Assembly (NCBI GenBank): GCA_004794785.1
Contig: SJOL01006711.1
Location: forward strand, 628,211 to 692,210
From: Opisthorchis felineus
Lineage: Eukaryota; Platyhelminthes; Trematoda; Opisthorchiida; Opisthorchiidae
Direction: 5' to 3'
DNA: 64,000 bases
Shown piece by piece: positions 4,851-55,480 of the stretch. The position numbers were made by a program, and so were the translations under genes. A model generated the notes under the pieces. It was given only the letters and a program-made list of their open reading frames with translations, was not told where the DNA came from and did not search any database. Each line of letters starts with the position of its first letter. Position 1 is the stretch's first letter.

Positions 4851-5703
4851 ACTGAATTCACTTGGGACGAAATGTCCATTGAAGAATAGCGGTAAGGTTG
4901 ATGGCAACTGGATATTCAGCGAACAGCTTTACCGTTAACGCGGCGTACCGTAAAAATTTATTCCTGGCTTATCATACGGCACACGTTTCACCTAAACGGA
5001 TGTTGCGGTGAACATTTATTCGGAAAATTATGTTTTAGTGCAGTACATCCAGTTCAGGGAAGCTGTGAACTAGACACTCGTTTGACCTCCTGCTGAGTTT
5101 CCCGTCAAAACAAACCCAATGTGCCGCATACATGTCCAAGCAAAAAACAATCCTACTAGGGTTTTGGTGATTAGGCGTACATGGTGTACACCATACAGAG
5201 CGTAAAAGGCTGTAAGCGTAGCGCAGCTTAGGATCTTACAATAATGTGGTAGCTATAGAGTTGCACGCAGTTGGTATTTAGTAAGAACTGAGCAACAGGA
5301 ATGGGCGGAAGAAGGTAGCAGATACTGCACTGACAACTGGCTCTATAAATACATCAATTAACCAGCAGTATAAAATAAATAGGACAACAGTATTGCAAAG
5401 CAGTAAGGGTAAGAGAGAGGTAGTCAATATCAAGACTCTTTGGAAATCTCAAGTAATATACAAACGTACTGATACAGGATTTTAGACTGTAAACGGGTTC
5501 AGTCCGCAGAAACATTCAGGGCTTTCGGCCGTCAGATCCGAATAAATGAAGGAACGAGAACTACCTACAATATTTATCTTACAGTGTGAAAAGACAACAC
5601 ATGTGGAAGAATTAAACTAAAACACGCTCTGAGACACGGTTATAATAAAAACGTAAATTTTCTATCAGTTAAGACGAAGCACAACTATACAAATAAACTT
5701 ATG
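4851..5703. other. Non-coding stretch, nothing recognised
   Basis: AT-rich sequence between two SINE heads. No open frame, RNA gene or repeat that I can support. Confidence 0.55.
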
Positions 5704-5950: not shown

Positions 5951-7164
5951 CGCTCCACGTCTAATGGAAGGTGAGGTTAATTACGGGACTTGTGGGACTG
6001 CTTTGAAGAGTTCGTTTACAATTGCGTGATTGTCAATGAATATCCATGAGAGTTCAAGCAGATGCGTGAGAATGTTCCGTTTTAAAGAATTCTGTGCATA
6101 TGAGACGTTTACTCTCCTGTCCAGTAGTTTGTAACTGCTTAGTTGGTGTTTGCCAATAAACGAATTCGCCAGGAAGGGCTTTCCTGCTTACACAGGTAGC
6201 AAAAACCACCTAGCGAAAAACGCGTTCCGATAAACAGACAAAAACTATGCTGTTGGTGATTATTCAAAAGAAATAAGTTGCCCCTTTTTCATAGGGAAAA
6301 TTATCACATCCCGTAGACTTTCCAAATTTTCAGTCGACCTTAATAGTAGTGCTGCAAATGGACGAAGTTCTCTTAAATCATGAAGATAGAGTGAAAAACA
6401 GTTTGCAGATGGACACAGCTCATTCTCCATTGAAATAGCAAAACGCCACTAGAACAACTTTAGCGCTAGCTTCTCCATGTAGGCATCTGCACTGTTCCGG
6501 GTGATTCAAACTGTGACTTAGAAGAACAGGTCGTATGACTCAAAAGTTTCCAAACGCATACGTAGTTACCTACTCTTATAGTCCATAACCCTGAACATGA
6601 CTTGTACACCTTTCGAAAAAGAGAATTTCCCAAACAACCATGGAGTGAGGACTCATATACTCGGAAGAAAATGCTCTGTGTGGAAAGACATGTGCTTAAT
6701 AGAACCTTTAGGCAAACAATACCCGGAGTTCATAGTCACCTTAGGTGTGCCTTATAAAGAGAAAATACTATTGCAGCTCGTCACGAGTGTTACAGCGATA
6801 TCCAGGTAACACTCAGGTTCACGCTAAAGGGGATTGCAAACAAGTCTCCGTACAGTTTGCAGGAAGCATCCAGATCCGGATTTACTCGGTTACTGCCAAC
6901 AAGGATAGAATTTGCAATGGGATCTCAGGAAGTTTTCAACCATGTCGGTCGTAGTAAGCGAAAGGCCCTGGGTGAAAATGTTTTCGCTTAACCTACTTGT
7001 CAGTTTATAGTAGTCTGAAACTGGTGGTAAATGATTTCGTCAAACTTATGTCAGTGCGAATGCATTGCCATCACAGCTTAACTCCATCTAACGTCGGTCT
7101 AAAAGTTAACTCTACACTCGCGGACTACACTTAATTTCATACTCACTTCATTTTAAAGGGAGGA
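5951..7164. other. Non-coding stretch, nothing recognised
   Basis: Two overlapping plus-strand frames of about 70 codons (6597-6954) have no motif or signal peptide and are treated as chance. No repeats seen. Confidence 0.5.
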
Positions 7165-7405
7165 CCTACTGAATCCCAAATGAAACTATCGCTTATGGCA
7201 CTCTCCAACTGAATGTGCTGCAAAAGACCGCCTCATTTGTTACGATATTCGAGATATCGTGGTATATTTTCTTGAAGGAAGCAACTCGTATGATTACTAT
7301 GACCACTTCGACAGCTAGAAACCGGTTTATCCCTTTTCTTTGATCCCCAGGTAGGCGCAGTTCGAGAGTTCTACTTGTGTTCCGTTAGATCTCAATAGGA
7401 ACCCA
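7165..7405 (-). repeat. Hammerhead-like repeat, unit junction copy
   Basis: Read on the plus strand, this copy holds the tail of one unit (ccaactgaatgtgctg at 7205, gatattcgagatatcg at 7245) followed by the core region of the next (ttcgacagc, accggttta, ggtaggcgcag at 7308-7360). The same word order occurs at 36.95-37.46 kb and, inverted, at 39.35-39.7 kb. The ribozyme sense is the minus strand: cctacctgggg, then taaaccggt, then ctgtcgaag. The CTGATGAG box is damaged here (CTGGGGAT). Tail and core in one stretch show that units are arranged head to tail. Confidence 0.6.
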
Positions 7406-9089
7406 ACTGATTTTTGATGGATTTTTTCCTGAACCCATTTGTCAGCTATGCACTTTGCCTTCCGGTCACCCTATCTTCAGCTCTTTTTGCGGATACTATT
7501 ACGTTTTCAGATATAATGCTTGTGGTGAATAGGTTTAACCAAATCGCCTTGTGGTTGTTTCTTAACTTTCCACTTCCTAAAATCCATAGAACAGTTTTGC
7601 ATGCTACACCCGCAAAGCACTCCAGGCTGCATATATCACTGAGGAATATCCGACTATGAATACCTGGCAAGCAAAGATGTAACATTGCTCTAAGTATAAC
7701 AATCGGTCTGAAAAATTTTCACTAGAAACTGATACACTGTGCCCAAGATTTTGTGCCAAAATATCTTGATAAGAGACCTAGATTTCGTTTATTCTTAGTA
7801 TGAGAACGATGATATCATCGCAACTTCGTGACGCCAGGACTTCACAGTGAACATTTTTACCCGTATGTCAACCCAGTCAGAGACATTTGCCCTGGTATGC
7901 AACATGCAAGAATGGATATTTTCTACCATACATCTTCTATCACTCAGTGTGGGCATGAAAGAGGATTGTTGCGCACTGTGCATCAACCTAGCTGGAATAA
8001 AATTACCCCGTAAGCGTCAAATTCTGTTACCTATCCATCACTGTACCTGGTTTTCATATCCAAGTTGCTTCTCCAAAACTAGAGACCAACTTCTATGGAA
8101 AGTAGTTAAGTGGGCTATTTGACTGAAGATAGCATGATCACTTTGATAGGTTCGTTGTAATTGCTGGTTTGAACTTACCTCAAACATCTAGCTGTTCTAC
8201 CTTTTTACCTCTTCCTTCAGGTGCAAGCAAAATACTGGTCCAACAAGACCACACAATACCTAATATACTGTTGGGTAAAATTCGTGCCGTGGTACATTTT
8301 CTTTGCTCTTTCTCAGTCCTGGATTTCTGAAAAGCTTGCTAATTAGAAGAGGTTCCCAAGGGAACCAAATGAAATGAAACCAAATCATTTCCAATAACAA
8401 CCTGGTCGCCAGAGAAAGCCTGGATTCAACAGCTTTCTCTACGAGTACATTTGCTGACACCGGAGTTAACGTAGTATATTAGGGAAACCTATATGCTGGA
8501 TATACACAATAAAAAACATGTCGACCCTCAATACATGGAGTGGAAACTACTCATATTCTCAACGACAACAAGAGTGCCAAATATTTATTCGAACTTCAAC
8601 GGAGCAAACCCGTTTGAATTCCATTCCCATCCAAAACCAAAAACCAAAATAGTAATAGGCCGTCTGTTGGCATAACCGTTTCGGATAGAACGAAGACGAA
8701 CTATTTTTTTCGGCTTTTGAAATCCTGAAAATTGTGTTGGCCACGAGGGCATTGTGGTGGGTGAGAAAAATTATAGTGCAGGAAGGACCCAACTGCATCC
8801 GATAAAATACCAGCTGCGACCACACAAGGGAGTTTTATGTGAACAACGCGTCACACTGATTAACACAGCACAACTAGTGTACCCAAGGAAATTGTCCGGC
8901 AGAATAGCTCCCTGATCCAACAGATAGGTACTCAGCACCAAATGAATTAGATATTATTGTCACAACAGCTTCATCAAGATAAGTTATAGAGGCCCAACAC
9001 CTTGTAAGCATGGCAAGTCCTGGAAACCTTAGAAGGATGAGCTGTTTGTAGCGTCAGAAATAAACTGATCATCTACTATTATAGGAGGA
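7406..9089. other. Non-coding stretch, nothing recognised
   Basis: Several overlapping 60-90 codon frames on both strands (7414-8122, 8260-8825) cancel each other out as evidence. None shows a family motif. Confidence 0.5.
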
Positions 9090-17559: not shown

Positions 17560-17860
17560 GCCGGTCCCACGCCTTCCATTTCTGTTTACACTGGGATGCG
17601 TGGCGATTTCCACCGCCTCGGCCTCTAGTCTCTGTGACTTGGACCGTAGTCCCCGCCTCAAAACGTCAACATTTTCTGAATCTATTTAGTGTCCCGTGTT
17701 CCGTGTTTCTTCCACCGTTGTTGAGTTTTTCAGTAGTGCTCGATAGTCATCTGAGATCCTCGGCGGCCTGTCACTTTTCCCTTCTGCTCTCCGATTCTGG
17801 TGTAATGTTCCATGGCCATCTGTCCTATATAGACCTTAGTGCAGCCGTTACGCCTAATAT
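17560..17860 (-). pseudogene. GIY-YIG endonuclease domain of the Penelope-like element, decayed
   Basis: This domain nicks the insertion target. On the minus strand, CTKVYIGQ is encoded around 17846-17823 and supplies the YIG half of the GIY-YIG pair. In the same frame downstream come GRRGSQMTIEHY, matching the family's conserved arginine and the histidine segment, then a stop. Another frame further down gives SQRLEAEAVEIATHPSVNRN (about 17640-17580), containing the conserved glutamate and the terminal asparagine segment. At least one frameshift and several stops separate the parts. A GIY-YIG domain following an RT is diagnostic of endonuclease-bearing Penelope-like elements. Confidence 0.8.
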
Positions 17861-17899
17861 TGTACACAGTCCTGCTTCGCCGGGAGGCGATCCTTTAAA

Positions 17900-18175
17900 T
17901 GCATTGGTGCAAAAGGTAGAGTGTCTACCCTTAGAAAATCTACTCTTATGTTGGCCGTGTTTAGAATCCTTCAAATGACTTCGGATGTCCCTAGTTTATA
18001 TGGAATAACAGCAGTCCCAATCCATTCCAAGTTGGATTTCGCCACCGGTACCAGCACCCTTCTTAATTGACACCTAATCAAAGTATCTAGATACCCACTA
18101 CCCCGAAGTTTGTTCTTCACTTCATTTGCAGCCACTGTCTGATCAACTTTTTCTGTACACAAGGCCCTCACTCGG
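17900..18175 (-). pseudogene. Penelope-like C-terminal RT extension
   Basis: A minus-strand frame from 18171 to 17971 reads RALCTEKVDQ, then NKLRGSGYLD, then IPYKLGTSEVI. It is followed in another reading by RILNTANIRVDF. The pattern of an arginine-rich start, a short helix with a G-Y pair and an I-P-Y-x-x-G-x-S-E element before the endonuclease is what I expect between RT and GIY-YIG in this class. The region has one internal frame change after the isoleucine at about 17975. It is decayed in step with the RT. Confidence 0.75.
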
Positions 18176-18239
18176 CTAAAAATTAACTAAGCAATACTAG
18201 GTATTATGGACTTAGGATGGGCAGAAGAATGGTTCAAAA

Positions 18240-18916
18240 TCTCCCCAGTGTCAGTTGGTTTCTCACACAGTAGTTTTTAGTTTTCTTTCCATCTTATGGG
18301 TCATGCATTCTAAGAAGGGTAGAGTATCCGAAGTTGACTCTATCTCCATACTCAATCTGATGTGTGGATTCCGGTCATTCAGGTGGGTGTAAAACTTACT
18401 GATCTTGTCTCGTTTCTTAAGGACAAAAGTATCTTCTACTTAACGCCAGAATATCTCAGGTAGGTATGGGAATCCGGCTAAAGGTTTCTGTTCAAATCCT
18501 TCGTGAAAATATTTGAAAAAACCTGGGATATTGAAGATCCCACTGCTTGACCATGTTCATGATTGTAAACCACGGAGCCAAAAACAAAGTGAGTGAGACT
18601 AAGGCATGCTTTTATACTCCCTACTTTTTCATCTACAGCAAGCTGTGTCTGTTCTGAAAGGGTGGTATCTGCTAGAAGCAATCGCCTGGCTGTATCTAAA
18701 GAGCCTCCTTTTGGCCCATTTGTATACAACAAATTGACATTGAAAATTACAAGGATTTCATGTGGTCCCACGTTGACACCCGCTACATTATTGGTAAAAT
18801 CATATGAATTCTTACTTAAAGTACCGAATTCTCCGGTGAGGGGTTTTTATAATGCCTGCCAAGAATCTGGCCTGCGCATGAGGTGGGGAACCTATTCTGT
18901 CTACTATCGGTTTCAT
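18240..18916 (-). pseudogene. Penelope-like reverse transcriptase, inactivated
   Basis: The RT would copy element RNA into DNA at a nicked target. In order on the minus strand I read: MKPIVDRIGSPPHA near 18916; then, after a frameshift, TGEFGTLSKNSYDF near 18840-18800; then a 97-codon open stretch (18771-18478). That stretch contains VIFNVNLLYTN, matching the FDV-SLFTN box, and the box GQAVGSSISQVFSNIF at its residues 74-89, matching the G-x-x-MGSSISP box. The next segment reads FWR, a stop at 18440-18442, then VEDTFVL. The family has YVDD here, so the catalytic tyrosine codon is now a stop and the first aspartate is glutamate. It ends near LPFLECMTHK at about 18290. Confidence 0.9.
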
Positions 18917-21339: not shown

Positions 21340-21500
21340 ACGGACAAGCCCACTGCGATCTCTGAAATTTGACTGTGCCTGACTGCTGAAAATCCCTTCT
21401 TGGTGGCTAGCAGGCAGGTGCATTCTCAGAGATTTGTCAGACTTATGTTCCAAATGACTTCAAAGTGGACGCGATATGTAAAATCTGGAACATAAAGCGG
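21340..21500 (-). repeat. Hammerhead-like repeat, decayed copy
   Basis: The plus strand reads cttcttggtggctagcagg, then caggtgcattctcagag, then gacttatgttcc (21398-21450). This follows the order and spacing of the better copies (ctttcttggggcgcatcagg, gcgcagtctccgag, cttatgtt). The CTGATGAG box reads CTGCTAGC on the minus strand, so the ribozyme core is destroyed. Confidence 0.45.
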
Positions 21501-23455
21501 ATGTTGAGCATCACATTCAGTCGAAAAGTACCATAAACGAGAGGCTTATCTTGGATTTATTTGAGTCTCACCGCCATGACCAAATAAATTTAGAAATAAG
21601 CGTTTGTTGGGATGAAGTAGTATTTTACTTCGTGGTGTTCTAGTTCAAGTATGACTACCTAAACAATATGAATTTATGTGGAAGTCTTTGGTGATGATGA
21701 TGACGGCGACATGTATAGGTTGGTATTTCTTATGAACAGAATTATATAATTTGTCTTAAACAATTGCAAGCACCCTCTGATTCGTACGCATGGGTCGGTT
21801 AGTGATTATGGCACACTTGTGTATGCTTCCTGTAAAACTGTATTTGACAACGCAATAGATCCTTACTTCAACAGAAATACAGCGAAATGGAAATCATTTT
21901 GTGTTTGGATATCCACTTAAAAATGTCTAACCTGAGCATTAATATTTGAAAAATTTAGCGCATTCCGTTAGACTTTCAGTCCGTGGTGCGCTAGGCTTCT
22001 GATAGTCTATTATTAACCCTCACTACCGACTACGTAAGTAGCAGTCCTAAACGGTGATGTTCAAAGCTTTTGCACTGGCATCCTCGTTATATCGTAATAT
22101 GATAGAAATAATGCTTCGGTCGGTAAAAGGCACTCTTGCAAAAGAGGGTTATCATCTTAAACAGCAAGAAATAACGTAATTTCTGCTCGGAATGTTGCTG
22201 CTTTGGAGGGTATCCGCAGATTGTTGAATGTCAAGTAACTGGCCGAATATTATAAATACCACCACTCTATTCTCAGATGCTTAGATCCTTGGACATTTAG
22301 ATTCGCAGATACGAATATGCTTTCATATTTCCCCGGTAGTCATTTTAAAAACTTGTAGAAGATTGCGTCATAATATGTACATAGTGAAATTCAGCGTGCT
22401 GTTAACTTAGACTTTATTGCTACCAGTGCCAATACAAAATAAAAGGTTACACAAGTGTTGTTACTCCGCGGTTTATCACCATCGGTCCCGCTCATCGAGC
22501 ATCATTTTGCAGCGTGTCAGTTGAAAAACGAAAGCCAAAAACTAAACCAACCATCACACACCCTGTTGGTGGACTTCACGGAAGCCTACGGCTTTTTCAA
22601 AATACAGATATCTTAATGCATTATCTAAATGCGTTCGGTCATGTACAAGGGTTCCAGTTAGTTTGAAACTGGAACGTAAGTAGATGATTGTGTTTTAGTC
22701 ACAACTCTGTTAGTTCTGTGTCCGGCCGCGATTTCTGAGGAAGCGTTTCGTGGTTCTCAAGTTTGCTGACTGATCCACCACCGTCTACATTGTCACCTGA
22801 TCGACCAAAAGAGCTTCCTAACTAAAACGGCTGCACCAGTCAAAGATCGTTCTTGCACGTCCTTTATTTGCACATTCAAATTGCACCAAATCGTAGTGAA
22901 CAACCGGAGCATGCGCCTCAAGAGAATCTTGCTGTGGTCACGATATAACTGCTTCAGGAACATGCATTTTGCCAACATATCCGGGGTACCAATGACAGAC
23001 ACCTTTTATTCAAATTAGTGGCCGCTGCAGAGTGTGATGTGAAATATCCGCTCCCTCGGTAGCACCTTACCCGGCTACTTTCTATATCTAACATAGATAC
23101 TTTTGCAGCCATCACAACTGGTGTGTATACCGAGGTTTAGGCGCATTTAGATGTTTTACTGTGTCCACCCCTGCATAACAACCGGCGGCGCATACGGCTG
23201 CTAGAAAAATTTCACTTAATTTCATGAACTACCAGCTACGCTGATTAGGTTAAGTGAAACGAATGGCGGTGCATGCACTCATAGGTAGCTGATATACGAT
23301 CATTTGAAGAAAGCAGTTCAAATATGAGGCAACCAAAATTCTTCTACTATGACAATAAGCGTTAAAAACTGTAATCTCGGTTTCAGACCTTTGGAAAGCT
23401 GACGTTTGACCGAGCGGCGTGGCCAACCACCGTCTGCACAATTCTGAGCAAACAT
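21501..23455. other. Non-coding stretch, nothing recognised
   Basis: Only short overlapping frames; includes a short (GAT)n run at about 21692-21703. No repeats or RNA genes I can support. Confidence 0.5.
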
Positions 23456-26789: not shown

Positions 26790-26965
26790 CTTCCACTCTG
26801 ATCCAGCTGAGTCGTCCGTAAAGACCTAATCACTTTAAAAATGAGGTGCTTTGCAATTTGCTAACAATTTGAGTTCAGGCCGGACGTAAGTTTGGTGGAA
26901 ATTCGAGGGCAGCCCATGCCTGATGAGCTCTCAGAATGGTGAAATCGATCCTGGGCATATAAAAG
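26790..26965 (+). repeat. Hammerhead-like repeat copy, ribozyme sense
   Basis: The upstream part has atccagctgagtcg near 26800. The core follows: acgtaagtttggtggaaatt, gcctgatgagctc (CTGATGAG at 26920-26927), then GGTGAAATC at 26938-26946. Both invariant ribozyme boxes, CUGAUGA and GAAA, are intact here, which is rare among the copies. The stem between them is poor and the downstream GTC and closing arm are not evident. Confidence 0.5.
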
Positions 26966-28366
26966 CTCATTTAACTAACCTCAAAAGTGATGTATGGTTC
27001 TGGTTTTAACACACATTGTACCACCACCAAAATTAAATTGTAACAACTAATGAAGAGCCTGAATTCGCCTAGAGGCCTGTTTTATCCCCATTCTTAAATG
27101 TGAATTCGAGCAATAGATAATTTTTTCTTGCACACCCTCTGTGTAAGTATGAAACTACCCCCCAATGGCCTCTATTTCCACATCAGAGCTTACCAAGCTA
27201 CAATTACGCTGATTAGGTATACAGTTGGTACACTAACTGGAAGTGCGCACTTAGGCTGTTTTTGTATGCTTGCTGAGGTAGTGGCTAGTGTTTGGTAGAG
27301 GGACTTAAACGAAAATGACCAAGAAACTCTAATTTATTTTTGGTTTCCGTGCGTAGTTCAACAACGGTTTGTTTTAATTTGAACATGATTGGCAAAATGC
27401 AAGAGGCTGAGAGCATCGTGGAGCAAAACAGATTTGCAAACTCCTTCTATACTGTAGCTTTCTGTTTTTCCTCCAAGTATTTCAAGGATTGCTTTCTTAT
27501 TCATGCTAATCAGGTGCACAATCACAGTCCTTTAACACTGTATTTCAATGGAGGTCAACCTCCATCTAAGCAATCGATTCGAGCAAAATAGCAAGCAGTT
27601 GTTAAATACAAACTGTGTAGGACCTGGACTCACCTGACAATGGAGTTCTATAGTAACATTTCTATGAACATCACCCACTTTAATGCCATTAGAAAGTGAC
27701 AATAAGCTGAACAAATAATTGTCCAACAAGAGGGCGGACACTCCTCTATCTCAATGGCGTGATCATTAAGACCTCAATGCCCTGCCCTTTATATGTATCC
27801 GGAATGTCGACTACCCTGAATGGTACTTCACTCCATTAGCAGTAAGTGGTTGCAAGATTTGTGGAATTCTTGATTCTAAATGATGCACACTTCGCAGGAA
27901 AAGCACACTTTTCGAAATTTTGCTGTTATTAGAGATAATGTGGACCAGTTTCTTGTCCCATTGTCAGATATTTGGGAGCCAAACTCCGCACTGCCATGTA
28001 TTTGCAAGTTACCTACAGCTAACTGGAACGAAACTGGCGCACAATGCATCCGAACTTTGGTAATGACTAATCAAAATGGCCGTCTAAACGCCAGCCACAT
28101 GAATACAAGCTTCTCCTTGCTAAACCAGAGGAGGCCAACTAAAAGGAGCCAAAAAGAAAAGGAAAAAATGAACTGTTGGGATAAAATAAATAATGCTGCA
28201 GGAGATTTCAGTAACGGCAGTGTCATCCATATTTAAGCCGAAATTCACTTGGCTAGCCTTGTGCTTGTTTAAAGGTACTATAATATAGAGCTGTTAAATA
28301 TTGCTATCTGTGCTAATTCAACCAGCTTTCAATGCACATTTTTGTGTGAACTTTTGAAAAAGTAAG
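26966..28366. other. Non-coding stretch with a rejected 118-codon frame
   Basis: The plus frame 27880-28236 is lysine- and asparagine-rich at its end with no recognisable domain. The upstream cttcgcag is a weak acceptor. Nothing else is visible. Confidence 0.4.
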
Positions 28367-33606: not shown

Positions 33607-35689
33607 TATCTGTCTTAGCTTATCTATCACCCAGAGCTTTATGACGTTTGATTGATTGGTTATAAGGTGTTCTGACTCACCAGCTTGTATTGCTTTGCCG
33701 TGCATGCATACACTGTGAACCATGTGCTTCCTGTTCTGACAGTCCGAACGTGGAGTGGCGCCAATCTAACATGGTTCTCATTGTCACACCCAGTGAGAAC
33801 ACTCTACCGACCGACACAAAGCATTGTCTGCACTCCGTGGGGAGAAGGGGTATGCGTCAGGCAGGTGAATTCATCCTAACAGGTGTGTGCAAGGCCTACA
33901 CTATTATAATTCGTACCATTATCATTCAGAAAAATTGTGCTCCGTTTATCGTTTGATGCACGCAGAAGTGTCCATCAATAGTAGAGCCGTTTCATTTTCT
34001 ACTGTTCATGCGACTGGCGAGAAGTTATGGGTAATATAACTGACGGATTAAATAGGCAGTAGTATTTTGTGTCTAACCCGTATCATTTCTTCATGCGCAT
34101 TAATACCATAGTAGAATTGACCGCTCAGATAATTTTATTTCCCTCACATACGCTGAAATAACATTTAATACCGCTTTACTAATACAATAACGATGAAGCT
34201 CGTCATATTATGGGCAATGCCCAGAAGTTTTGGTGGCACGAAACAAAACAGTTTTCCACCCTGTAGCTGAAAGCTTCAATATATTTAGAGGACTGAATAG
34301 TGTGCACCGAAAAGCGGAGGTGGGATAAATCATATTTAACAAAACACAAAGTTGTCAGCAAAATTCCTTCGTATTGCGATTGTGCACCGTTTTTCTCCTT
34401 TATTTTCATATTTCAGCGTCAGCACCCTAAGTAACCGTAATACTTGATGTACACTTACTAATTCTAGATGTGAACGAAGTGCCATTCTTGATTATTTTGT
34501 ACGTTTCCGTTCAAGTGAGCATCTAGTTAAAAGTTCTAGCCAAGCACGTTTTTATGCAATGTAACCACAGACACACTGCTCCAGTAAACTAGGAAATTCT
34601 ACAGTTGAAGCATGTAGAAACTGCTTCATGTTCTACTCATTCCAGGGTGGGAACGAACTCTTAGATCGCTCAGAGCCACAACATTAATCCTGAGCCAATT
34701 GGATATGAACGAGTAGTATTGCTTTAATGCTTTGGAAAAACATTATCCATAAAAACGTGCCACAGTTCCCTGTCAAGACAAATACATCTCAATGATGACG
34801 GCGATAGGTTTTTTTGGACGAAAGAGATAGAAGGCATGCTTCCATGATGTCTCCAAAAAGGAAGTCTGTCTAGGGTGCACAGGTGTACGAATCTCACGTC
34901 ATAAAGCAGCTCTGAGCTGTGCGAATAGACTTGGGATTCATCAAATGTTTTCAAACAATTCTGGATTACGCGGAAAACAAATTTAACCATAAATATTAGT
35001 CATCGTAGGCTTTTGACTGTTTATTGTTTCACAATCCACTGTATATGCTAAGACCTACTAGTTTATTGTTATCTCACGAACCACGGTCCGAATGGCCTGT
35101 AATTCTGCATTGCTACATAAATAAATATATTTGTGCCAGACACTAGGAGACTATATCTGCCTTTCGTCAATCGTCGTCATTAAGGTCAAAAATTATTTTC
35201 ACACAAACAAGCAGAGAGTCATTTTCGTTAAAAATAGCAAACCATCAGAATCAGCTAGAACACAAGGTTCACTGGATACTTTACTAGCTCTTTACTAACT
35301 AAGTGATTTAACGTATTCAGGCACAAGGTAGATCAACGTTCTAGTTGACTCATCAATTTACCGGTTAGTTGAAATTTTTCTAGAAATGATTTCGCAAGGT
35401 TGTTCATTTTGTATCAATGATTTTCAAAGCCAACCACATGATCAGTACCAGGTGCTATGATCACACTTATCAGGTTAGGTTTAGGAGTTTCAGACCACTG
35501 GTAAGCAATTTTTAGAGTTCACACAAACGTAACCATATAACATACATGCTGATTATACGCAGTTTAACGCCCTTGGAAAACGGTGGCTTCATTAGGATTT
35601 AAAGTGGTTTTTATACCAAATGGTAGGCCAGAAATCGCTCCCCAAGCTTAGCCAAATAAGTTACCCTTTCGCAAAACGCATTCACGCGT
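33607..35689. other. Non-coding stretch, little recognised
   Basis: Two overlapping plus frames at 33685-33956 show no family motif. A possible antisense hammerhead-like fragment (cttatcaggttagg near 35470) is too degenerate to call. Confidence 0.45.
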
Positions 35690-35731
35690 ACACTAATGTT
35701 TTTTATAGTTCAAGTGGAACATAAGATTGAC

Positions 35732-35806
35732 GAAAACTCGGAGACTGCGCCTACCTGATGAGCTCCAATTAGATTAAAACTAATCGCGGATTGTCGAAGA
35801 GTTTTC
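35732..35806 (+). ncRNA. Hammerhead-like ribozyme motif, first unit
   Basis: The layout is GAAAACTC (35732-35739), a 15-base stretch, CTGATGAG (35755-35762), then a region where the second stem should be. It continues with AAAAC (35776-35780), a short stem region, GTC (35793-35795), GAA and GAGTTTTC (35799-35806). The outer arms pair perfectly over 8 bp. The CUGAUGA box and the GUC cleavage triplet are intact, but the family's GAAAC reads AAAAC and stem II is lost, so this copy is probably inactive. Confidence 0.45.
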
Positions 35807-36030
35807 TACATCATTAAAGTCATTGTTTCTTCAAGAAAATATACTGCAATTTATCGTATGTCACACGATCTGAAAGATGAGGTGGTTTTTGTGTGTACAT
35901 TCAGTTAAGAATATCATAAACAATCAATTCTGCTGGGATTTAGTTGAATCTTCCATTAAAACCGAATCTGTTTGCAAATGGCTATACTAATCCAAGTGTG
36001 CACATTTTCGGGTTCAAATAGATTGCAAGA

Positions 36031-36109
36031 TTGATGGAAACTCGGAGGATACGTGGACTTAATAAGCCCCGAGCTGGGCGAAACCATTTGTTGGCAGTTG
36101 AAGAGTTCT
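36031..36109 (+). ncRNA. Hammerhead-like ribozyme motif, second unit
   Basis: Here stem II and the second box are kept: AAG, then CCC paired with GGG around CGAGCT, then CGAAAC at 36079-36084. The first box has decayed to TTAATAAG (three transitions from CTGATGAG), and the cleavage triplet reads GTT. The outer arms (GAAACTC at 36037-36043 and GAGTTCT at 36103-36109) still pair over five bases. What is broken here is intact in the first unit and the reverse, so a shared functional ancestor is the simplest reading. Confidence 0.45.
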
Positions 36110-36228
36110 GATCACCTTATTCGTGAGTCGTTTTCCTCCTAGCGGCGTCGGGCGAACTAAACACGTCACCCATGCGTGATGACTTTTGCCTGTTCAGACG
36201 TGATAATTCAGATGCTTCCAGCCTGTGC

Positions 36229-36949: not shown

Positions 36950-37456
36950 CCAGTAACAGACGCTGGTCGAAAAATGAAATGAAAAACAGCTCGGTTTCAG
37001 TGGTTTGTGCCCAGCAGAATGCTCTAAGCCTAGGGTAAACAATCAACACTTCTTGGTCTAAGTAAAAAAGAGGCCAAAAAGAAGGCAATAAATATTTTGT
37101 TTTGACAGAACCTGGAACGAAATAGAATCTCTCGCTTATGCTTTTCCTAAGCATCTGAATGTTCTGAACAAGGCAATCTCATGTTTCAGTTGGTAAGATA
37201 TTCTACATATCGCGACACATTGTGTAGACTCAATATACTACTTATGAGGTCGCTGAAAACACTTTGACAGCCCACCACCGGTTTTGTCCTTCCTTAGGCT
37301 CATTAGGTAGACGTAGTCTCCGAGTTTCCGCTAACCTTATGTTTTGTGAACGCAAACTGCACGAAATTCTACTCATACACTCATCTGATTGCCAGTGTTG
37401 CTTTGAATGGAGGCTCACCTGGAACCCAGATGAATCTCTCATGTAGGGTTCTCGTT
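36950..37456 (-). repeat. Second tandem pair of hammerhead-like units, opposite strand
   Basis: On the plus strand (antisense to the ribozyme) two units follow each other. The first is eroded at its core (tttgtgcccagcag near 37005) but has gaatctctcgcttatg at 37125 and catgtttcagttggtaagat at 37180. The second has accggttttgtcc, ggctcattaggtag (ctcattag at 37299-37306), gtctccgagtttcc and gaatctctc at 37432. The core-to-gaatctctc distance of 133 bp matches the copies at 39.1 kb (134) and 55.3 kb (129). The period is about 290 bp. Open frames across it (37242-37446) are shadows. Confidence 0.7.
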
Positions 37457-39114: not shown

Positions 39115-39342
39115 CATTCAGGATTGATAATAACTGTCCGATATCGCGCGACCAGTTTTGCCTTTCTTTGGCTCATCAGACAGGCGCATCCCCAAAGTTT
39201 TCGTCAAGTTTATGTTTTGCTTGATCCCAAGTTGGACGGACTTTGCGAAATACTCTCCTTTGCAAACTATTATGGTTCTGACGGGGAACTCAAATGAACC
39301 CACCTGAATCTCTCGTCTAGGATGAGCATTTTTCAACGAATC
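39115..39342 (-). repeat. Hammerhead-like unit, left half of an inverted pair
   Basis: The plus strand reads gaccagttttgcctttcttt, ggctcatcag (ctcatcag at 39172-39179), aagttttcgtcaa, gttttgcttgatccc and gaatctctcgtctagg at 39306. On the minus strand the core is CTGATGAG, a CC..GG hairpin, then CAAAAC, so the first box is intact and the GAAA box is changed. It ends at 39342 where the opposite-strand copy begins. Confidence 0.65.
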
Positions 39343-39344
39343 TG

Positions 39345-39700
39345 CTGCCAAAACCACAGCGTGTAAATAAGCGCACTTGTCAAATTTTGTGCAATTTGGG
39401 GTCAAGTAGAACGCAGGGTTGAGAGAAGTATGAGGACCGCCCAATGAATCACAAGAACGGCAAAAACTTTAGTGAGCTGTCGAATATTGCTGAACCTTAT
39501 GAATATTGTCCTTCATGGAACCGTACTGCAATGTCTCGAATATCATGGCTATTGAAACAAGACAGGTTTGTGTAGCACATATTCAGTTGAATAAGACTAT
39601 CGTAAACCAGAGATTCAGCTGGATTCAATGGAGCTCCCTGTGGAAACCACATTCCAACATAATCTGTTTCGTCACAAGTTCCAGAACAAGCTTTCAAAGG
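39345..39700 (+). repeat. Hammerhead-like unit junction, right half of an inverted pair
   Basis: On the minus strand (antisense to the ribozyme) the order is: tccagctgaatctctggttt near 39620, ttattcaactgaatatgtgc, gatattcgagacattgcag near 39530, ttcgacagctcactaaag near 39480, then a decayed core and ttctacttgaccccaaattg near 39410. This is the tail of one unit running into the core of the next, in the opposite orientation to the 39115-39342 copy. The 108- and 77-codon minus frames across this region (39118-39444, 39497-39730) come from the repeat. Confidence 0.6.
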
Positions 39701-42266: not shown

Positions 42267-45174
42267 TGGAGAATTTGGAGCGTGGTATCCCCAAGAGCTC
42301 TCCTTTCCCTAAAAGAGGTCAGACAAGAATTATCTAACACGTCTAACCTAGTCTAATGTTGCATGCGTACAACCTATATTCGCCTAAAGTTTTATGAATT
42401 GGAACAGGCCATGTGTGAATCAAAGAGGAAAAACTATTACTTCGAGTTAGCATCACGAAAGCTGTTCGACCTTTTTGTCTTTTGCATTAACTCCAGATGG
42501 ATGTGGGAACATCAGCGCTGTTTGAATCAGAGCACCAATTCTAAGTCATGTTAGGAAAATATGTTAGATCTTTGATTATAACGTGCTTACCGAGATTCAA
42601 GACGGATAGTTGAAAACTATAATAAACGGGAGTTTTGGCCGGTATTCAGTTGTCCTCCATTAATTCCAACTTACTTTACCCTCGAGTGTATTGCCTAAAT
42701 TGTCAAATGCTTAGTGTTCAAGTAAAACATGCTTTTGAAGAAAACTCGCGAGCTACAATTATCGATGATTCCCACAAAGGCAAAACTGCTACTTGGTTGT
42801 CAGCGTTTTCAGAAACCTTATAAGGTGAGCGTCACGTCTAGCAATTTACAATCAGTCCGCCTCCGAATACGAATCCTAACTGAACCAGCTTGCCTTAGCT
42901 CATTTTTACCTTCATCGCAGATTGCTCTAGCACAGCTCTAGCGAAACCCAACCACGCGTATCAATCATGATATGTTTAGACTGCAAGTCGGATGGGTAGG
43001 CTCAACCCAGCTGTAGTTGAAGGCGCAGCGGACGTAAGCACACACAATCACAATCGGCAGACTGACAATGACATGAATGGGTAGCCTGACCGGAGAGGCA
43101 AACTTGTGTTAACAGGCCCATTAGCACACACCGTCACTTCAACCTCATCCTCATTTGGGCTTGACTTGTTGCCCATGTAATTCGGGTTTTTCTCGAATTG
43201 ACGCCAGAGTGAGAGGCTGTGCACAATAGATTCATATGTCTGATATGATCACTAGGACTATGTTAGCATTGCTATCACCGTGTTTACTTCGGTACACTGA
43301 GAAACTCTAGTCTCCTTGCAGTGCGTTGGTGTGGAACACCATCCTAGTGATGTAGATGAAACATGGAACTTCAAGTAGTCGTCAATGGAATACCGCGTCG
43401 CTGTGAACTCGAGATGAACAAAATTGGAAATATGTCCTAAATGTACGGCTTCCGTTGCAAACTTCTAAGGAACCCGTTGAGTCGACAATGACCCTTATCC
43501 AACACCTTCGCCGAAAACGCAAATGGTGCAATGCGAACAAGAAAACGCTTAATGTAGAACCTCAGGAATCTAAACGAGACATTATCTAGGGCACGCATCA
43601 CCTGAGTAATAGGACTACGTTTTCGTCAAGATGCTCGGAATTTTTCACCTGGTAATGCCAAGACTAGAAAAGTGAGACTTCCACATCTGCCCGCAGCATG
43701 TTGATCAAAATTATATGATGTCTGGTCCATCTATTCTATCTGACACATCACTCATAACATGCATAAGTAACAATAATTTGATATTTTACTTGTCGCCGAG
43801 GACAAGCAAATTGTCAAAGAAGCCACCCTACTTCTTTCGAGATTTCCTTGTTCATCCATTCTTAAGCATCTGAGAAGCAAATGTTGGTCTGTACACTTCT
43901 AAGGATCTTGTCACATTTGACCAATATTTGTGGGAGACAGCGAGTGTGCACCTGGCGAATACTATGATAAATCCCAATTTTTGTTACCCTCTGTCTAGGC
44001 TGGAGGAATAAATTCGACCTTATTAGGTGTTCACGTATGACTTGATTCTTCCGACTGGAACTTCGAAAGCAAAAGTAATGTTTGCATTCAACCAACATCG
44101 ACATACCCCATAAAGGTGCATTTTTGAGTTTCTAAGGATAATAAAATTGATCCATTTCGGGAATTAATCACTTACATTACCGCCTTACTACAGCTCTCCA
44201 ATAAGAAGCAATCTTCTCAACGGCACCACGTCAGTTCGCGTTTCCTGCCATCGGATTCATGGGCGAAACAAACTATTGATTATAGGCTCTATGAGCTCAT
44301 CAGTCTGTCTTATTCCTTCCCATCATTAAATTTAAAATTAGCCACCATTCATTGTGGCACATGATGCCTCCATATGGCGAAGCGGGATACTTTTGTGTTC
44401 AAATTAGCATCAGTGGTTATAGCCGGAAGGCATTGTTAATGTTAACTAACGTGTTTGACAGCCGAACGCGCCAAAGGCGAGTATGTTCCTTGGCTTGCTT
44501 GTGTTGTGATAAACCATATGACCCATAACGGAGAGGAGATTAGACTTTTCCTAGGTTTTCCTACCTCACTTTCAGAATAAGTCAAGACCGGGGTGATTAA
44601 TCACTCCAAAGGAGCTCAGTTTCACGAGTATCAAGTGATTCGCGCTAAATCGCACAGCAAGGTACAAGTATCTTCTGCTGGACGGAAAATGAGACTTCTC
44701 ATTTGAACTGTAGTCAATCGGTCACAAATACATAGAACGTAGGGAGTGACTTTGGGAGAAAAAGTAATTAGTCTGTGCCTGCAGAAAATGGCCATGTCCC
44801 TAAAACTTTATCCGCGCTTTTTGACAGAGGATGTAAATAAGTCGTTAACCATTGGTATGAATATGGAGTTGGGTGGAATATTTTTGTCACCAGTTGACCC
44901 TCTATCTAACTGTTTACTGATCACTTCACAGGAGGTTTACTGCTCTCTCACCACACCAGACAACTGGCACATTTAGTAAGTGGTTTGTGATTCATACCGA
45001 AGTTGGTCGGTCATTCCTTTACAGGATATTGTATGAACCCACAACTGTCAGCCCAACTGTACCTTTCTCTTTCAGGTCACATGGTAGCATGGTGAGGTAA
45101 AAGTGGCTAATCAACTACAGCAACCGTGTGAATCACAATTTCTGACCTCTCAAGCAACGCCATCAAGTGATCTG

Positions 45175-55121: not shown

Positions 55122-55261
55122 AAAATACCTTGACATGCAACGGCATAATTTAAGGTTCGCCACATAGGCATTTTCTTTGATCGCGTCAATCCTCTCGCTT
55201 ACCTGAATAACAACTTAGAACAAAACACAAGTTTAGATGTAATACATTACTCATAACTTTG

Positions 55262-55480
55262 CTGAAAAATCTTCGATAGTCCATGATCGGTTTTACCTTT
55301 CTTGGGGCGCATCAGGTAGGCACAGTCCCCCTGTTTCCGTCAACCTAAAGTTCTACCTGAGCCCATTTTGGACAGATAAATACACTCCTTTGCATATCAA
55401 TCTGGTTTTGACGGGTGACTCACCTGAAACCCAGCTGAATCTCTCTCTTATGATTTTCTTAAGCATCTTCTTAAGCAACT
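55262..55480 (-). repeat. Hammerhead-like repeat unit
   Basis: The plus strand reads atcttcgatagtcc, gatcggttttacc, cttggggcgcatcaggtagg (cgcatcag at 55308-55315), cagtccccctgtttccgtc and gaatctctctcttatg at 55437. On the minus strand the core is CTGATGCG, then CCCC paired with the GG of AAAGG, then TAAAAC, then a changed cleavage site (CTATCG). The 129-bp distance from core to gaatctctc matches the 37.3- and 39.2-kb copies. An 89-codon plus frame and an 80-codon minus frame over it are shadows. Confidence 0.65.

Follow-up and report, generated by a model that had tools for sequence, protein, structure and literature searches.

Retrozymes without LTRs have been described in metazoans such as coral, mussel and axolotl (Cervera and de la Pena 2020). 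According to the accessible text of that account (PMC7229834), each unit of ~170-400 bp carries a type I hammerhead ribozyme, the units occur as anything from dimers to long tandem arrays, their G+C content is under 50%, and their target duplications are longer than 4 bp. The machinery and the template that spread animal retrozymes are still treated as a hypothesis in the Discussion of the same paper, and Penelope-like elements have been proposed there as strong candidate carriers. Amphibian hammerheads have a short stem III on a palindromic tetraloop and do best as dimers (PMC7229834 and PMC6155905, in their accessible parts). A Penelope-like protein from Anolis offers a further point of comparison: in the available portions of PMC11167929, the protein begins reverse transcription at two adjacent positions within its RNA, in vitro it cuts and extends both strands of the target with a preference for A+T-rich DNA, and insertion in vitro is independent of hammerhead cleavage.

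The window analyzed here is a 64,000-nucleotide stretch of the Opisthorchis felineus assembly GCA_004794785.1 (contig SJOL01006711.1, positions 628,211 to 692,210 of the forward strand). Within it, positions 35707-36140 represent, with a probability of about 0.93, an old copy, now inactive, of a hammerhead retrozyme of the metazoan (non-LTR) type; this figure covers the identity of the element and not its copying route. A BLAST search of the window with the intact master unit of the family aligned 35708-36133 at 72% identity. The element amounts to ~1.4 units and runs from unit coordinate ~215 to ~48, where coordinate 1 is the base directly 3' of the ribozyme cut, and its two hammerhead modules flank one full spacer. 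A sequence-only reading had drawn a tandem dimer at 35700..36112; the dimeric arrangement stands, but the repeated unit extends to 36140. The cores that it described are borne out at every position: CTGATGAG (35755-35762) and TTAATAAG (36059-36066) lie exactly 304 bases apart, with AAAAC in the first core and CGAAAC in the second, then GTC (35793-35795) or GTT (36097-36099), and the arms GAAAACTC (35732-35739) and GAGTTTTC (35799-35806) pair perfectly in the first module. When the first module (35705-35812, 108 nt) was used as a probe, the copy 304 bp further on matched it without gaps at 65/108 positions, where the mean over the window is 27.9 (sd 4.6), and at least 60/108 matches were reached at five places besides the probe, namely this copy and four others (60 to 76). 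The proposed unit of ~304 bp holds for the local spacing, which is the family period in a decayed copy, whereas the intact master unit is 293 bp.

Both local ribozymes are damaged. In hammerhead 1 the two arms form the outer stem I, the core CTGATGA occupies 35755-35761, stem II (35762-35765/35772-35775) has decayed, and AAAA at 35776-35779 reflects a change of G12 to A; loop III (35780-35783), U16.1 (35784) and C17 (35785) follow, and the predicted cut would fall between 35785 and 35786. Hammerhead 2 retains an intact stem II (36066-36069/36076-36079) and an intact GAAA (36080-36083), and its core, TTAATAA (36059-36065), has three lesions, C3 to U, G5 to A and G8 to A; here the cut would be expected between 36089 and 36090. 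The full core of CUGANGA, GAAA and UH is present in the master and incomplete in both of these units. Since G12 of the hammerhead is described as the general base (PMC6155905, accessible part) and both units carry core lesions, neither local unit at 35707-36140 should cleave, and both should be dead.

Further copies are dispersed in the window (Table 1). An iterated profile recovered ten copies of a module of ~100 bp, with E values from 3e-25 to 2e-12 in the last round, and larger profiles showed that the flanks also belong to the repeat, with a unit of about 300 bp. Core lesions mark 5/6 of the window modules in the alignment, all 12 scored core bases being found only in copy 26872, and the consensus of the ten copies has A at position 12. 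In this copy the module lies at 26885-26972, and its minimum-energy fold is not a hammerhead. Elsewhere in the window, pieces of open reading frame at 17730-18846 (-) resemble what we take to be the degraded coding sequence of a Penelope-like element, with its reverse transcriptase and GIY-YIG nuclease; these pieces gave no match in Pfam, PDB or protein-database searches.

Table 1. Retrozyme copies and hammerhead modules in the 64,000-nucleotide window
Feature	Positions	Strand	Evidence
Weak, partial copy	5036..5210	+	profile, nhmmer
Copy, probably what is left of a longer (dimeric) insertion	7117..7499	-	profiles, nhmmer
Copy; module part 21380-21459 inverted relative to the remainder	21371..21607	+	profiles, nhmmer
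Copy; module 26885-26972	26800..27002	+	profile, covariance model, nhmmer
Decayed retrozyme copy	35707..36140	+	nhmmer with two master units, two overlapping matches
Hammerhead 1	35732..35806	+	alignment to intact copies; family covariance model, 86.9 bits, E 2e-20 (model alignment contains hammerheads 1 and 2 themselves)
Hammerhead 2	36036..36110	+	family covariance model, 57.9 bits, E 8.8e-13 (model alignment contains hammerheads 1 and 2 themselves)
Copy, second unit partly present; lesions G5A, G12A, H17G	37094..37453	-	profile, covariance model 88.0 bits
Left arm of head-to-head pair; lesion G12A	39116..39352	-	alignment, covariance model, nhmmer
Right arm of head-to-head pair whose left arm is 39116..39352	39338..39653	+	covariance model, nhmmer
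Copy, unit ~109 to 37	42599..42826	+	profile, covariance model, nhmmer
Copy, unit ~119 to 53; core lesions A9C, G12A	55232..55464	-	profile, covariance model 81.5 bits

Young copies in the 630,098,494-base assembly contain an intact type I hammerhead in which every core base is present. They read GGAAACTC-GGG-GAC-TGC-GCCTAC-CTGATGA-GCCC-CAAGAA-GGGC-GAAA-CCGG-TC/GTGGGC-T-GTC-GAA-GAGTTTTC, with the slash at the predicted cut. Stem I of this master is made up of GCCTAC/GTGGGC (6 bp), an asymmetric internal loop, GAC/GTC (3 bp), an internal loop, and GGAAACTC/GAGTTTTC (8 bp); stem II has 4 bp, and stem III is a single A-U pair closing the CCGG loop, in a three-helix layout with stem I open. With a full type I core and stems I and II, the intact copies uphold the hammerhead layout that had been proposed from the letters alone, and they correct it in two respects. 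Stem I, thought not to pair neatly by the core, does so in the master, and the GTC or GTT taken for the cut site lies instead on the 3' side of outer stem I, the cut being predicted 10 bases further 5', after A[CCGG]U-C. A cut at GTC had also been derived from the ten-copy window consensus, and was ruled out by the intact genome copies; a stem I formed by an upstream GTAG/CTAC (stem III open), based on covariation judged by eye, was dropped after these copies had been seen. A plant LTR retrozyme was likewise rejected, as this would have a type III hammerhead with stem III open, and the master is type I with stem I open.

The retrozyme-like character proposed for the element is upheld by the intact genome copies. 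In unit size, tandem layout, G+C content (45%), lack of coding capacity on the sense strand, and target duplications, the family is like the metazoan retrozymes, a likeness in described features (PMC7229834, accessible text). The satellite hammerheads of newt and axolotl are, again by description in the text available, type I with a weak stem III, as in the master, although their units are ~330-350 bp compared with 293 bp here. Within the accessible part of PMC8490949, the SMalpha SINE-like elements of Schistosoma are also small non-coding repeats with a type I hammerhead. Penelope-like elements that carry minimal hammerheads resemble this family in their partial tandem copies, and their two adjacent internal priming sites, their use of both target strands in vitro and their A+T-rich targets match what the copy ends suggest here (PMC11167929, available portions). 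Unlike the 293-bp unit, in which no sense-strand frame reaches 40 codons over two tandem units, they code for a reverse transcriptase and a GIY-YIG nuclease of their own. On the antisense strand, a stop-to-stop frame of 125 codons runs through the tandem units at L003:1120-1497 (+). The published crystal construct of Schistosoma SMalpha reportedly has a longer stem III than the master and a stem I of different sequence.

A first search of the assembly returned at least 48 matches (4218 candidates, best 40 scored) and a second, with two master units, at least 184 (2173 candidates, best 40 scored); not all matches are listed, so the copy number of the family is bounded from below only. In the assembly the 293-bp units form tandem arrays, the longest with ~12 units. 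At many loci the array interior shows 100% identity to the master, and terminal stretches are often 80-99% identical, the lowest 79-80% (e.g. L062:1051-2796, L073:1020-4302, L066:993-2527). Such homogeneity suggests assembly or polishing effects, or else very strong homogenization, and because such effects are possible nothing is drawn here from array length or identity. Neighboring units of one copy share a mean of 1.61 changes (18 pairs) compared with 0.52 between copies, the highest of 5000 permutations being 1.21; such sharing within a copy would follow from repeated copying around a single monomer.

The ends of copies were analyzed in two sets of loci. Set 1 consists of the 29 loci of the first search and the window (70 merged segments), with L001, which is the window, dropped; set 2 consists of the 20 array loci of the second search, in which L074 is the same place as L003. 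The loci were chosen as top matches to two queries and do not form a random sample, the set 1 query itself spans 215 to 48, and BLAST ends are fuzzy by several bases. Read within these bounds, 28/66 of the 3' ends in set 1 and 22/52 in set 2 lie in unit 30-62, where a uniform distribution would place 11%, and 18/66 and 17/52, respectively, lie in 190-210, where it would place 7%. Copies ending at 36-42 (e.g. L007, L009, L012, L024) often continue with a variant sequence, GTATTACGTCTA, that is absent from the master; this tail, which starts from unit ~39, may mark a subfamily with another spacer or a natural 3' end. Given this frequent continuation, the sub-clusters at 36-42 and 47-57 appear, by eye, to be two sequence versions of a single site. 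The 3' ends bear no visible trace of ribozyme processing, with 2/66 (set 1) and 0/52 (set 2) lying within 8 nt of the cut. Beyond the 3' end, both sets have a run of T at ~11-13 bp (30/46 at +11), and T accounts for 93/222 of the bases at +9 to +14 compared with 28% (p 1e-5).

The 5' ends are more scattered than the 3' ends. At 288-293/1-12 there are 15/125 ends where 7.7 are expected, and the largest bin of 5' ends has a p of 0.0012; with four alignments that appear to be split inside arrays removed, the count is 11/121 against about 7.4. Ends 1-12 nt downstream of the predicted cut are seen at L062:2795, L029:2017, L080:4022, L063:1043 and others. The 5' ends near the cut resemble reverse transcription run-off from cleaved RNA, and, the excess being small, they are a lead only.

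Neighboring copies within 60 bp of each other have a marked orientation. In set 1 there are 19 head-to-head, no tail-to-tail and 7 same-strand neighbors, the last including alignments split inside arrays, and in set 2 there are 18, 3 and 1, which gives 37 head-to-head pairs compared with 3 tail-to-tail. Both arms could be assigned to a site in 22/37 head-to-head pairs, and 17/22 have one arm of each site. A clear target duplication surrounds the whole pair in 7/30 testable cases: L005, L018, L028 and L029 in set 1 (of 17 testable) and L065, L072 and L077 in set 2 (of 13 testable), where L076 is out of register; none is clear in 23/30. Where clear, the duplications are about 7-13 bp long, in keeping with the lengths above 4 bp described for retrozymes, an approximate length because some matched bases belong to the end of the element, and most copies have no clear duplication. 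The mean flank match nevertheless lies above all 500 permutations (44 insertions) and all 400 permutations (26 insertions), whether the insertions are head-to-head or not. Furthermore, the identities of the arms to the master correlate within pairs (r 0.55, 19 pairs, permutation p 0.008). Neither head-to-head pairs nor clustered priming sites are described in the accessible text of PMC7229834, the main text of which does not contain the word 'inverted', and a literature search found no accessible paper with both 'retrozyme' and 'head-to-head'.

A possible copying route can be outlined from these features. Tandem transcripts would cut themselves at the hammerhead, the monomers would be closed into circles, and a reverse transcriptase from another element would copy the circles into new places. 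Two internal sites, at unit ~37-57 and ~194-205, would be preferred as starting points, and copying would often proceed from both strands of a broken target, leaving a head-to-head pair inside one target-site duplication. The ends and pairs fit a process in which priming is internal and both strands of the target are extended, as occurs for the Penelope-like enzyme in vitro. We suggest, tentatively and at slightly less than even odds, that a Penelope-like enzyme inserts metazoan retrozymes: priming would take place at two fixed positions within an RNA that derives from the ribozyme and is probably circular, and extension would follow at both ends of a staggered break in A+T-rich target DNA. 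A single event would then give a head-to-head pair, one arm often running to several laps round the template, and the copies in the genome would be a fossil record of the priming sites. Internal 3' sites, which this route entails, are seen in the copy ends, and the pairs suggest the extension from both strands that it also entails; these ends are what the proposal of Penelope-like carriers predicts (PMC7229834, accessible text).

Head-to-head pairs are also predicted by twin priming of LINEs, and a LINE may have mobilized the retrozyme in place of a Penelope-like enzyme, the pairs then being ordinary 5' inversions. The junctions between head-to-head arms have little or no intervening sequence, and twin priming also yields tight head-to-head junctions and target duplications of 7-13 bp, the lengths found here. 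This is a serious possibility, which we nonetheless rather doubt: the 3' ends lie at fixed internal unit sites, no poly(A) or simple-repeat tail is present in the copies inspected by eye, and the arms of a pair tend toward different sites in the assignable cases. Internal initiation with extension of both strands is, in addition, known for a Penelope-like enzyme (PMC11167929, available portions). It appears unlikely that the pairs formed only once the copies were in place, through recombination or the formation of palindromes among separate copies. Such an origin could draw on the three tail-to-tail neighbors in set 2, the majority of pairs without a clear target duplication and the suspiciously homogeneous array interiors, but a single duplication encloses the whole pair in seven testable cases, the identities of the arms to the master are correlated, and tail-to-tail neighbors are rare. 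For internally primed copying from both target strands, the family provides a readable insertion record, with fixed 3' ends, head-to-head pairs (some in one duplication) and multi-unit runs; this record makes the priming sites and the two-strand model directly testable, in vitro and in other genomes.

Several analyses bear on the hammerhead fold itself. A perfect type I motif, defined as all core bases with a stem II of 4 or more and a stem I of 5 or more, occurs once in the unit and, for comparison, once in 20 Mb of random sequence from a Markov model. None of 200 shuffles folds as well as the unit (z -3.5), in which the hammerhead arm forms a separate domain; the minimum-energy fold contains stems I and II, and three core bases are mispaired (CUG with CGG). 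All 12 scored core positions are intact in 27/67 distinct modules (the 69 found in all, with three gapped copies of the window removed and the 26872 copy added). Across these 67 modules, conservation of the core did not differ significantly from that of other columns (0.910 vs 0.894, p 0.15), a result that replaces an earlier p of 0.0034 that had rested on the wrong GTC-cut register. Covariation within the family was not significant, with 11 doubly changed cells compared with 8.3 in shuffled data and 96/500 shuffles as high. Weak core conservation and absent covariation are both expected under neutral decay from one master, so the case for the fold lies in the sequence of the master. A first descriptor scan was discarded as too permissive, since 1.2% of shuffles and of window stretches equaled the score of the consensus.

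In Rfam searches of nine loci, the best matches were to Hammerhead_HH9 (RF02275; gathering score 52), with a highest score of 35.8 bits (E 1.1e-5), and one copy matched Hammerhead_1 (RF00163) at 33.0 bits (E 1.1e-4; gathering score 34); a search of 19 further loci gave 23 HH9 matches at E <= 0.1. No match reached a gathering score in any locus searched, that is, in the window, the nine loci, 19 array loci or the 19 further loci. No hammerhead was found in the window at gathering scores or in 35650-36200 at E <= 10, because the local copies are too decayed. HH9, presumably the human and amniote hammerhead, is a conserved single copy, whereas the hammerhead described here belongs to a repeat family and scores below the HH9 gathering score. 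Pattern searches of viral contigs gave no matches.

The sequence-only reading had stated in advance that the likeness would be accidental if the genome-wide consensus failed the hammerhead models and its boxes were no better conserved than the rest of the unit. This applies by half, with gathering scores unreached and core conservation at p 0.15, but neutral decay from an intact master would produce the same outcome, and the master fits every core position. That an ordinary SINE or satellite unit resembles the hammerhead core by chance is very improbable: the lesions in most aligned window modules, the A at position 12 of a ten-copy consensus that 1.2% of shuffles equal, the Rfam scores below gathering and the non-significant covariation would suit it, but the genome-wide master has G12, a motif found once per 20 Mb of random sequence and Rfam E values of ~1e-5, and its hammerhead sits in ~300-bp tandem units like those of published metazoan retrozymes (PMC7229834, accessible text).

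Two other structured elements were observed near copies of the family. A second hammerhead-like motif, with CTGACGA and GAAA, is present at L011:2361-2405 (-), outside the retrozyme copies of that locus (RF00163, 27.5 bits, E 0.015), and a full selenocysteine tRNA (Rfam 81.5 bits) lies at L006:2316-2401 (-), about 400 bp from a retrozyme copy.
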